Part shown: positions 4,026 to 33,918 of the stretch, piece by piece
How positions within the stretch are numbered: the first letter of the stretch is position 1
How the letters are laid out: every line of letters begins with the position of its first letter
From: a virus
Length of the DNA: 34,226 nucleotides
IMG/VR virus record: IMGVR_UViG_3300028595_000009
Span: 1 to 34,226 of that record
Strand: one strand, 5' to 3'
Position numbers and translations under genes: made by a program
The notes under the pieces: model-generated
Databases searched by the model: none
What the model was told of the DNA's origin: nothing
Seen by the model: only the letters and a program-made list of their open reading frames with translations

Positions 4026-4346
4026 ATGAGTAGAGGACGCACAGGAGTGAAAAATTGTCACCAAGAAATGGGTAATGTGAAAGTGGTACAGATGATAAAT
4101 AATTGCATACAAAGTAAAGAGTATTGGATGCAATTTTTTAAAAATCTAAAAGAAGGCACTGGATTTAAATTTTACTACAAGGAAAGTTGCAGCAACAGAT
4201 ACGTAAAGAGAGAGGGGGAAATTGTTACTAAAACGAGCAGAGGTATAGTAATAAAAACCCTCTCCGATTACAAAGAATATTATAGCATATACGATTTTAT
4301 AAGTGGGGATATAAAGCCAGAGGAGTACAATTATAGCATATTATAA
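4026..4346 (+). CDS. Hypothetical basic phage protein, 106 aa
   Basis: ATG with TTTGGAGGGATAAAA upstream. The product is basic, with several Cys (CHQ, NNC, ESCSN) and aromatic residues, and no family I recognise. Bases 4063-4080 share the exact 18-mer AAGAAATGGGTAATGTGA with 4508-4525 in the next gene, in both cases encoding EMGNV. A strong terminator directly follows and ends this operon. Confidence 0.7.
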   Translation: MSRGRTGVKNCHQEMGNVKVVQMINNCIQSKEYWMQFFKNLKEGTGFKFYYKESCSNRYVKREGEIVTKTSRGIVIKTLSDYKEYYSIYDFISGDIKPEEYNYSIL

Positions 4347-4352
4347 AGTTAT

Positions 4353-4379
4353 AAACGGACACCAGATGTCCGTTTTTTT
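4353..4379 (+). terminator. Rho-independent terminator (repeated type, copy 1)
   Basis: Perfect 9-bp stem AAACGGACA / TGTCCGTTT with loop CCAGA and a T run. The identical stem with another loop recurs at 4750-4776, so the two terminators are duplicates flanking the gene at 4483-4731. Confidence 0.92.
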
Positions 4380-4409
4380 ATGCAAAATAAATTATTTCTT
4401 AAAAATGTA

Positions 4410-4438
4410 TTGACTTGTATAAAACAATGATATATAAT
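4410..4438 (+). promoter_or_regulatory. SigmaA-type promoter of the TTGACTTGTATA family (copy 1)
   Basis: TTGACT at 4410-4415, 17-bp spacer, TATAAT at 4433-4438. The -35 region reads TTGACTTGTATA, identical over 12 bases to the promoters at 4809 (+) and 30730 (-). It drives the single gene at 4483-4731. Confidence 0.88.
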
Positions 4439-4482
4439 TAAAAATGTCGAAAGGCACAAAATAAATAATAGGAGTGATTTAA

Positions 4483-4731
4483 ATGATTAAAACAATTGAA
4501 ATCAACAAAGAAATGGGTAATGTGACACCAATTGATGTATTAGCAAGTTTAGGATATAAACACCAAGGGGTAATCGATTTTTACTGGAATAAGAATGGAT
4601 ATAGTTTTAAAGTTACAAAAAGTATGCATGATAAACACTATTTTTACAAAGATAATAAATTTTATATGTTTGTTGAATGGACATATTTCAACGGATTTAT
4701 TGAAGAAGTTAAAGTTAAAGAAGTAAAATAA
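4483..4731 (+). CDS. Hypothetical protein in a self-contained promoter-terminator cassette, 82 aa
   Basis: ATG with AATAGGAGTG upstream. The product is aromatic-rich (FYWNKNGYSF, HYFYKDNKFYMF) and looks like a small beta-rich domain, but I recognise no family. It has its own promoter (4410-4438) and terminator (4750-4776), the arrangement of a moron, an accessory gene expressed independently of the phage programme. Function could be host-directed, but nothing in the protein says so. Confidence 0.78.
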   Translation: MIKTIEINKEMGNVTPIDVLASLGYKHQGVIDFYWNKNGYSFKVTKSMHDKHYFYKDNKFYMFVEWTYFNGFIEEVKVKEVK

Positions 4732-30848: not shown

Positions 30849-32321
30849 TTACAATTCCAACAATTTTTTATAATCTTTTTCGCTCATTCTTATGTAGCTT
30901 TTTCTATTTTCTGCTTCTATAACTTGTATAGTTTTCAAAAATCCATAGATACTTTTCCCCTTTGATTCTGTTATTCCAATTTTCTTAGATATTTTTGTTA
31001 TTCCTGCAATCTCTCCATTTTTGCTTTTACTGTTTTCAGCTTCCTCAAGATAAAGCTTTATTATGTCTTTATAAGTGTAGTGAAATTTTTGTAAACTTTC
31101 ACTTAGCAAGTTAGTATTAATTTTCTTAAGTCTTAAGTTATTTGTCTTAGGTCTTAGGGATTTTTCGCTAAGACTTAGGTTAGATGTCATAACCCCATTC
31201 TGTTGTGGCTCTTTAAGACTTAAGGATTCATCTTTAAGACTTACAATTGTTTCTTTAGGTCTTATGGTATCTGTCTTAGGTCTTATCTTTTCAATTATAT
31301 TTCCTAAGACATCTTTTTTAACTCTTACTTGTTTGATATTTTTCTTAGGTTTTTCGTTAAGACTTAGGTTATCTGTCTTAGGTCTTAACTCTTTTTCTTT
31401 CTTAAGATTTTTGATATCTGATACTTTCTTAGTTATCTTAGCAAATGCACCTATTATACCACTTATTCCACCTAACCCTATGTTAATATTTATGCCTGTT
31501 GTGCTTATCATTACCAAAAATGTACCGAGTAATTCGGCAAATACATTTTTTAAGAGGTAAAAGGTGCCTAAAATATTTTCTGGGCTCTCTCCTATGCCCA
31601 TACTATGGACCCAACTTGCAAATGCCAACATTCCCTCGGTTGCTAAGATTTTAGAATCTCCTATGTTGCTTAAGTCTGTCTTAGCAGATTCTTTAAGATT
31701 TCTATATGTTCCTAGCTGAGTTTCTAAGCTATTTATCCTGGAGTCTATCTCAGCTTCCTGTTCAGCTCGTCTAGTGTTTATTCTCTTATCCCAAACGTCT
31801 ACCCCATCCCTTGGGCTTCCACTTGGTGTTGTTATCCAGTTCTTTGATTTAGCATAAGCACGTTTTTCTTTAAGTTCTGTAAGTGATTTTTCTATCTCGA
31901 TATTCTTGTTACTTTTTAAGTTGCTTAATTCAGACGAGATACGGGCTATTTCCTTTTTGTTTGTTTCATACGAATCCAAGTTCAACTTATAAATATCTGA
32001 TGCTAGAATCGACTCTTGCTTTATCACATTGGCTTTGTTTAGGTCCAATGATTGTGATGCTATCATCGAGATACTAAAACAACCTAAGTAAAACAATAAA
32101 CTTATAACAGCCATACCATGATTCCCTTTGGATAACATATAAATAAATACTGATGCACATACAAGTTTTCCAATGTCGATACTAATACCTACTAGACCCA
32201 AAGCTTTTCCAAACCATGTACCAGTTACAAAACTTTCAAACAACATATAAGTACACATCATACTAAACACAATCATTATTATTCCTGCTACATACCCAAG
32301 AAACATCATATACTTATTCAT
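30849..32321 (-). CDS. Membrane protein with C-terminal winged-helix-like DNA-binding domain, 490 aa
   Basis: ATG with GGAGG seven bases upstream. Residues 7-28, 41-63 and 68-90 are membrane segments, 110-220 a coiled coil, 254-276 and 278-296 two more membrane segments. Residues 311-400 are a basic linker with repeated RPKT and LSLK motifs, and 414-490 a winged-helix-like domain (GITKISKKIGITESKGKSIY, then FLKTIQVIEAENRKSYI). A DNA-binding domain tied to the membrane next to the control region suggests replication, partition or regulation. I recognise no family. The linker DNA is a dense repeat array. Confidence 0.82.
   Translation of the reverse strand: MNKYMMFLGYVAGIIMIVFSMMCTYMLFESFVTGTWFGKALGLVGISIDIGKLVCASVFIYMLSKGNHGMAVISLLFYLGCFSISMIASQSLDLNKANVIKQESILASDIYKLNLDSYETNKKEIARISSELSNLKSNKNIEIEKSLTELKEKRAYAKSKNWITTPSGSPRDGVDVWDKRINTRRAEQEAEIDSRINSLETQLGTYRNLKESAKTDLSNIGDSKILATEGMLAFASWVHSMGIGESPENILGTFYLLKNVFAELLGTFLVMISTTGININIGLGGISGIIGAFAKITKKVSDIKNLKKEKELRPKTDNLSLNEKPKKNIKQVRVKKDVLGNIIEKIRPKTDTIRPKETIVSLKDESLSLKEPQQNGVMTSNLSLSEKSLRPKTNNLRLKKINTNLLSESLQKFHYTYKDIIKLYLEEAENSKSKNGEIAGITKISKKIGITESKGKSIYGFLKTIQVIEAENRKSYIRMSEKDYKKLLEL
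31125..31387. repeat. Array of 13 TAAGAC/GTCTTA hexamers inside the membrane-protein gene
   Basis: Plus-strand GTCTTA starts at 31130, 31144, 31151, 31259, 31273, 31280, 31375 and 31382; TAAGAC starts at 31169, 31214, 31235, 31305 and 31358. Longer forms are GTCTTAGGTCTTA (31144, 31273, 31375) and TAAGACTTA (31169, 31214, 31235, 31358). The two orientations encode different peptides (RPKT and LSLK), so conservation looks DNA-level. Iterons, a centromere or operators are possible. Confidence 0.8.
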
Positions 32322-32528: not shown

Positions 32529-32557
32529 ATTATATATTTACATTTAAATTTTGTCAA
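32529..32557 (-). promoter_or_regulatory. Leftward divergent promoter
   Basis: On the minus strand TTGACA (32557-32552), 17-bp spacer, TATAAT (32534-32529), a full consensus sigmaA promoter. It drives the leader ORF and the membrane-protein gene. Confidence 0.9.
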
Positions 32558-32579
32558 TATATACGTACTGTATTGACAA
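32551..32579. promoter_or_regulatory. Inverted repeat joining both divergent -35 boxes (operator candidate)
   Basis: TTGTCAATA (32551-32559) and TATTGACAA (32571-32579) are perfect inverted copies around an 11-bp spacer with TACGTA at its centre. Each arm contains one -35 box, so a dimeric protein bound here would block both promoters. The RHH protein encoded at 32632 is the obvious candidate. Confidence 0.75.
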
Positions 32580-32601
32580 TAAATATATGTTGATATAAAA
32601 T
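32573..32601 (+). promoter_or_regulatory. Rightward divergent promoter
   Basis: TTGACA 32573-32578, 17-bp spacer, TAAAAT 32596-32601, some 30 bp before the first rightward gene. It drives the operon through the origin of coordinates to the terminator at 598-633. Confidence 0.88.
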
Positions 32602-33049: not shown

Positions 33050-33109
33050 ATGAATAATTATATTAGACAAGCAACATGTCAACTAACCCCCACCTACGCT
33101 AAAGCTTAG
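33050..33109 (+). pseudogene. Gene start cut off by the structured RNA, 19 codons
   Basis: A strong AAAGGAG site and ATG open a frame MNNYIRQAT that runs into the RNA element at about 33079 and stops at 33107-33109. No such wasted start occurs elsewhere in this compact operon, so I infer a gene 5' end separated from its body by the insertion. The ORF at 33454 may be the remainder. Direct fusion in frame depends on the exact element ends, which I cannot fix. Confidence 0.5.
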
Positions 33110-33453
33110 AGGTGGGAGCTTGAAGAAGATATTCTTTGAAGCTCTAGTTGTCTAGCCTAAGTTCTTAGAGAACTACGTTGGATTAGATGTAGACACCATA
33201 GAATGATTCCCTAGTTCTATGCAACTGTCGTGGCTCTGTAAAAGTTCTAAGGGTAAGGAACGGTCAACCACATTGCGAAGCTATTTCAACATTGGCGAAG
33301 GGAAAATCAACTCCGTAAGGAGGGCGTAACCTGAGAGTATACGCCAGTAGTAAAAAGGTGAGAGCAACTTCTTGGCATATCCAGTTGTTGCTCTGTAGTC
33401 ACCGATTCATATCCCACCTAAAGAGGAAGGAGACTTCTCGGTGAAAAGTTAAA
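33075..33453 (+). ncRNA. HEARO-like structured RNA (putative IscB-type omegaRNA) without nuclease
   Basis: About 375 bases, clearly GC-richer than the flanks, with many hairpins. CAACTA (33080) pairs with TAGTTG (33145), enclosing CCCACCT/AGGTGGG (33089-33116) and GAGCTT/AAGCTC (33116-33144). Others are AGTTC/GAACT (33160-33174), CATAGAA/TTCTATG (33197-33221), CTCC-GTAA-GGAG (33311-33322), GGCGTA/TACGCC (33323-33345), GAGCAAC/GTTGCTC (33362-33393), and CACCGA/TCGGTG (33400-33443) enclosing GAAG-GAGA-CTTC. The 5' CCCACC...GGTGGGAGCTT, the size and the layout resemble HEARO, but no HNH/IscB gene follows. Confidence 0.68.
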
Positions 33454-33918
33454 ATGTTAGATGATGCAGGAATTAAAATTGAGAAAAATGAAAGTGGTGA
33501 ATATGTTTCAGAATATTTTTCAATAAATAGTAAAAAACATGGATATTATAATAGTTTTTTGAAAGAAAACTCTAAATTTAAAATACTTGTAACTATGAAT
33601 AATGATGTATGTATTATTCGTGAAATAGAAAAAATTACATCAGTTACACCAGAGGTCTTTGTATTTGATGTACTTTCTGGAAAAATGAAAATAGAAAAAC
33701 TTGAAACTCCAGAAAATAAACTTAATAATCTTTTAAAAACATTCGAACATTGTGAAAAAGAAATTGTTTGTAGCGAATGTATTTTAAATCCTTGTCAGTA
33801 TAAAGAAATGTTTAGATATTTACATCTGCAATCATATTCAAAATGCCTTGACAAAGTAGAAAAAACAATAAAAGAATATAAAGAATATATGGAAAGGAAG
33901 CTTAAAAATGAACAATAG
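33454..33918 (+). CDS. Hypothetical protein with Cys cluster, 154 aa
   Basis: ATG starts right after the structured RNA; GGTG at 33440 is a weak ribosome site and is part of the RNA's last helix. N-terminal DDAGIKIEKNESGEYVSEYF, and a C-terminal cluster Cys100, 106, 109, 114 and 131 (VCSECILNPCQ). It is not IscB, IsrB or TnpB: no HNH, RuvC or P1 motif. It may be the main body of the gene that begins at 33050. Overlaps the TM2 gene. Confidence 0.72.
   Translation: MLDDAGIKIEKNESGEYVSEYFSINSKKHGYYNSFLKENSKFKILVTMNNDVCIIREIEKITSVTPEVFVFDVLSGKMKIEKLETPENKLNNLLKTFEHCEKEIVCSECILNPCQYKEMFRYLHLQSYSKCLDKVEKTIKEYKEYMERKLKNEQ

Follow-up and report, generated by a model that had tools for sequence, protein, structure and literature searches.

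A HEARO omegaRNA with IscB transposon ends, apparently left by internal deletion of iscB, in a phage operon

The window analysed here, the whole of a 34,226-base virus contig that may be incomplete, carries within an operon gene an element that is probably a non-autonomous, MITE-like form derived from an IscB/HEARO transposon, whose omegaRNA may guide IscB in trans to the element's own empty site. The anatomy of the element and its kinship with complete elements are read directly from the DNA, as are the lack of a nuclease or transposase in the record and the recurrence of nuclease-less elements in other phages. The features are collected in Table 1.

Covariance searching of the window (cmscan) aligned the plus strand at 33078 to 33310 to the full HEARO model (RF02033, model positions 1-211) with 108.4 bits against a gathering threshold of 83 (E 1.1e-21), and no other Rfam family, group I introns included, reached its threshold. 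The score lies within the range of copies that retain an intact iscB (89.6-164.6), none of 100 shuffled sequences folds as well as the single-stranded region (z -2.5), and two-sided changes are present at 21 of the 33 consensus pairs in an alignment of the window omegaRNA with 11 relatives (12 sequences). Both the full-model score and the helix covariation are those of a HEARO omegaRNA, as the initial annotation had proposed; the GC-richer island that it described was likewise recovered, with 42% GC over 33095-33464 compared with 24-32% in neighbouring segments that overlap it little. It had extended the RNA over 33078-33453, of which the part up to 33310 stood, while the sequence 3' of 33310 turned out to be a remnant of the start of iscB followed by the right end of the element. 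Its placement of the guide in the 5' flank, before 33079, held except for the exact boundary, since the scaffold begins one base earlier, at G33078, which puts the guide at 33062-33077 (ending GCAACAT). This position follows that of IscB omegaRNA guides, which lie 5' of the scaffold, and HEARO systems are often viral, with more than 16% of genomic fragments assigned to viruses (PMC9755519).

Table 1. Features of the element and its flanks, in window coordinates
Feature	Positions	Strand	Evidence
Start of the interrupted phage gene, nine codons (MNNYIRQAT)	33050..33076	+	sequence; AAAGGAG ribosome site about 10 bases further 5'
Putative 16-nt guide ATTAGACAAGCAACAT, derived from the interrupted phage gene	33062..33077	+	immediately precedes the start of the HEARO model
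HEARO omegaRNA scaffold, the left end of an IscB-type element	33078..33310	+	cmscan RF02033, 108.4 bits; 21/33 pairs covary
AAGGAGG, ribosome-binding site of the lost iscB	33317..33323	+	alignment to L060 and L002; 0/2000 shuffles equal
What is left of iscB, about its first ten codons, CTG AGA GTA TAC ...	33331..33362	+	local alignment to L060 and L002
34-base hairpin AGAGCAAC...GTTGCTCT, between the iscB remnant and the right end	33361..33394	+	sequence, fold
Right end: inner hairpin within outer stem TCACCGA/TCGGTGA	33399..33444	+	alignment to the right ends of L057 and L061b; DNA fold z -2.6
TTAAA, fitting an NTAAA target-adjacent motif of the right flank (or the last bases of the element)	33449..33453	+	TAAA in 9/12 elements; NTAAA TAM of an engineered IscB
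Remainder of the interrupted gene, a 154-aa ORF without Pfam match, with an in-frame ATG restart at the right border	33454..33918	+	ORF list, Pfam

The region 3' of the scaffold accounts for the origin of the element. Positions 33305 to 33362 align to the ribosome site and first iscB codons of two intact elements, one at a phage locus (L060) and the other on a Cetobacterium plasmid (L002), with a score of 46 in each case; shuffled sequences reached at most 30 and 32, respectively, and none of 2,000 attained the real score. The start codon is CTG in the window remnant and TTG (TTG AGA GTA TTC) in both intact elements. Further downstream, 33399-33444 matches the right-end double hairpin that lies just 3' of iscB in the L057 element (score 52, shuffle maximum 25, 0/2000) as well as the right end of L061b (score 33, shuffle maximum 23, 0/2000). 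Together, an iscB start and a right end 3' of the omegaRNA identify the window element, at the level of sequence, as an IscB transposon that appears to have lost iscB by internal deletion and to have kept its left end, which is the omegaRNA, about ten iscB codons and its right end.

Neither IscB (tblastn and an RRXRR domain search), whose lack the initial annotation had noted, nor a Y1 transposase (Y1_Tnp) was found in the 34-kb record, itself possibly incomplete. In place of the iscB ORF with RRXRR, RuvC and HNH domains that lies directly 3' of the RNA in an autonomous IscB element, the window has only the start remnant, and left and right IscB ends surround an internal deletion, as expected of a non-autonomous derivative. 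By its sequence the element reads as a HEARO member; lacking the nuclease, it does not qualify by content as an IscB element. Across elements, left and right hairpins are more alike within an element than between elements (0/20000 permutations, with right-end boundaries set by eye), which suggests that one protein may recognise both ends and that mobility could come in trans; the window's own pair shows little of this likeness (score 8, and not the best partner).

The element extends from about 33078 to 33448 (or 33454), with a right border uncertain by about 6 bases. For an element known from two insertions (L057/L061a), the common sequence ends at GGTTAAAA, and the corresponding window sequence is GTTAAAATG. 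Of 12 elements, 9 have TAAA within 14 bases after the right-end stem and 3 lack it in the right flank, with boundaries set by eye, and an NTAAA/ATAAAA TAM has been reported for NovaIscB, an engineered IscB (PMC13180657); for these two reasons we prefer to read TTAAAA in the window as a target-side motif rather than as the element's own end.

Insertion into a phage operon, and the cutting off of a gene start with a ribosome site, had both been claimed from the sequence and were both recovered: the element lies in sense within an operon gene, whose start (AAAGGAG...ATG, with the ATG at 33050) is cut off after 9 codons. Excision of 33078-33448 is predicted to give one continuous reading frame, MNNYIRQAT-F-KMLDDAGIK..., and the predicted joint, ATG AAT AAT TAT ATT AGA CAA GCA ACA T / TT AAA ATG TTA GAT GAT GCA, is in frame with either border; the predicted empty site is AGACAAGCAACAT joined to TTAAAATGTTAGATG. 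Given the in-frame ATG at 33454, the insertion need not abolish the interrupted gene, which could restart from there. Two exact-joint searches for the empty site returned unrelated chance matches only, and the check for protospacers of the upstream flank that the initial annotation had proposed turned up none beyond the element's own predicted empty site. No second copy of the element was found in searches that included a genome pattern scan, which gave contig-edge fragments only; a DNA search of 392 genomes of one phylum found nothing, and a DNA comparison with phage records gave no match. The comparison with plasmids gave partial matches in four records, at least three of them adjoining an annotated iscB. 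A search for relatives of the interrupted protein found none, nor was a similar whole phage or close relative present in the collections searched. Between a 490-aa ORF on the minus strand (30849-32321), which has no Pfam match and is oriented opposite to the phage genes, and the plus-strand operon that holds the element, promoter-like sites lie back to back at 32529-32601 (12/12 on the minus strand, 11/12 on the plus strand).

Nuclease-less relatives recur in other, unrelated phages. Our first pattern for scanning viral contigs gave mostly chance matches and was filtered by the HEARO core motif; the scans returned many HEARO elements in which IscB lies 150-250 bases 3' of this conserved motif, and a minority without IscB. 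Fifteen viral records, searched whole with both models, yielded 28 HEARO and 17 RRXRR matches. Only one of the 17 RRXRR matches lacked an adjacent HEARO, and about 12 of the 28 HEARO lacked IscB, a proportion that is not a frequency because the set of 15 was deliberately enriched for nuclease-less cases. HEARO without any IscB at all was present in 7 of the 15 records, the largest being 183 kb and several being short fragments, and one 46.5-kb record holds two nuclease-less copies together with one full IscB of another subtype. This recurrence in several phage records suggests that nuclease loss was not a single accident.

In the L061b, L076 and L092/L112 elements, which occupy three different insertion sites and include the two copies of the 46.5-kb record, iscB ends after five codons (ATG/GTG GTA TAT GTA CTA TAG) and the right end follows. 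Over 281 bases L061b shares 99% identity with L160, a complete-type IscB element of another phage record whose open iscB frame runs off the record edge, and the divergence between the two starts at codon 6. This pair provides direct evidence, in sequence terms, that nuclease-less elements can arise from IscB-bearing ones in phages. Presence of a deleted element at more than one site was seen for the L061b/L076/L092 family, the window's own element being known from one copy. Eight two-sided pair changes between L061b and L076 were considered as a sign of selection on the RNA after nuclease loss and were set aside, because L061b is 99% identical to the intact-type L160, and recurrent deletion or recombination could explain them.

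Taken with the anatomy of the window, these relatives lead us to infer a course of events that runs from transcription through the borrowing of IscB and the cutting of empty sites to mobility in trans. An internal deletion would have removed nearly all of iscB but spared the left end, which also serves as the omegaRNA, together with a few codons of iscB and the hairpin of the right end, and the element would have inserted in sense into the phage operon gene, between GCAACAT and TTAAAATG. Transcription of the operon would then produce an RNA whose guide is copied from the 5' flank; given the sense orientation, the promoter-like site at 32573-32601 (11/12) and the lack of any terminator-like site between it and the element, read-through would be expected to make this RNA. 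An IscB with a compatible scaffold, supplied by the host, a prophage or a co-infecting phage, could bind the window RNA and be directed to cut the empty allele adjoining NTAAA, a cut that would favour the element's retention or copying. The transposition proteins needed for its mobility would come in trans from a complete relative. Use of IscB in trans by the window omegaRNA is possible, and it is plausible because complete and deleted elements with near-identical RNAs occur in other phages.

The same anatomy would be expected of a dead relic, an element that the deletion inactivated and whose RNA is now unused, a reading that differs from the one preferred here in present function alone. The iscB remnant and the right end are both diverged, so the window copy may be an inert fossil, and it is a single copy in a record without IscB or transposase; set against this, the principal omegaRNA helices can still form, IscB-linked copies span a range of Rfam scores that includes that of the window RNA, and other deleted elements have multiplied. 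We regard a dead relic as possible, if doubtful. A guide RNA adapted by the phage, as the initial annotation had suggested, did not survive the finding that the RNA is not purpose-built: it belongs to a transposon in decay, in which a 5' piece of iscB and the right end can still be recognised. In its specific form, that of a stand-alone RNA domesticated by the phage so as to aim an IscB encoded by the host at rival phages or at loci of the host, this explanation is unlikely: the guide is a mere flank of the interrupted gene, patterns built from the guide and the right flank gave unrelated chance matches only and matched no other genome, and the element has kept its transposon ends, for which a domesticated RNA would have no use. 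It does accommodate a scaffold well above the gathering threshold despite the missing nuclease, and the presence of nuclease-less HEARO in several phage records, including the 183-kb record without an IscB of its own.

Two further explanations concern the nature of the insertion itself. A sense-oriented structured RNA in a gene whose frame is continuous after removal would fit a group I intron, an IStron or some other self-splicing insertion, and yet HEARO is the sole cmscan match, with no intron family at its gathering threshold, and the borders follow IscB element ends, leaving this origin with a negligible probability. We also consider it very improbable that assembly fused a bacterial IscB fragment to a phage contig; the sequence is one metagenomic contig with GC in the element above that of its flanks, but both borders show the expected element end and flank, and the frame is continuous across the excised element.

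The non-autonomous IscB derivative that we favour can be placed among known systems. With HEARO/IscB omegaRNAs (RF02033; OMEGA), it shares a full-length covariance match, conserved helices, a 5' guide and a recognisable iscB start and right end, and it differs in that iscB is deleted except for about ten codons. Work on IscB and TnpB in 2021 reportedly described stand-alone, trans-acting omegaRNAs without an adjacent nuclease; the window RNA resembles these in lacking an adjacent nuclease, whereas it is phage-borne, has both transposon ends and an iscB remnant, and its origin by deletion is visible. MITEs and PATE-type non-autonomous IS200/IS605 elements consist of ends only and need a transposase in trans. 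The window element is alike in that ends are left and a transposase would come in trans, and unlike them in that one end encodes a complete guide RNA scaffold. Stand-alone omegaRNAs are already known; the window and its relatives add the anatomy by which the nuclease was lost, the recurrence of this loss in phages, and a pair of complete and deleted elements.

A current view is that the RNA-guided nucleases carried by transposons help these elements to persist. Elements that have a guide RNA but no nuclease would act as free riders and would offer a natural way to test whether IscB works in trans, for which the near-identical complete/deleted pair L160 and L156 is ready material. We tentatively raise the idea, which we do not hold to be probable, that a class of nuclease-free IscB elements exists in phages and is maintained and spread by RNA-guided parasitism of complete ones, with the omegaRNA in trans cutting empty alleles of rival phages. 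An abundant RNA of Lactobacillus salivarius was considered as a precedent for a stand-alone HEARO and rejected, as the paper names HEARO only as background (PMC5643018).

Other loci encountered in the viral records show further arrangements. A more distant phage (L049, a 36-kb record without IscB) has a HEARO at 4314-4620 with a terminator-like strong hairpin and T-run within 100 bases 3' of it, and is a candidate free-standing RNA gene. The 545-kb virus record G402 holds four HEARO and four RRXRR proteins, among them a HEARO at 483408 without IscB and an IscB-like ORF at 471525 without HEARO. Six HEARO, four with IscB (truncated at the contig end in one case), are present in the 185-kb virus record G401 (L086, L107, L116, L142 and L160). 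At one of these loci, L142, the stretch around 1460-1990 holds a HEARO without IscB (162.6 bits) and, 3' of it, a hairpin and the start of a TnpB-like ORF (MLKTYKFRIYPTEEQ...), possibly a composite of the two element types.
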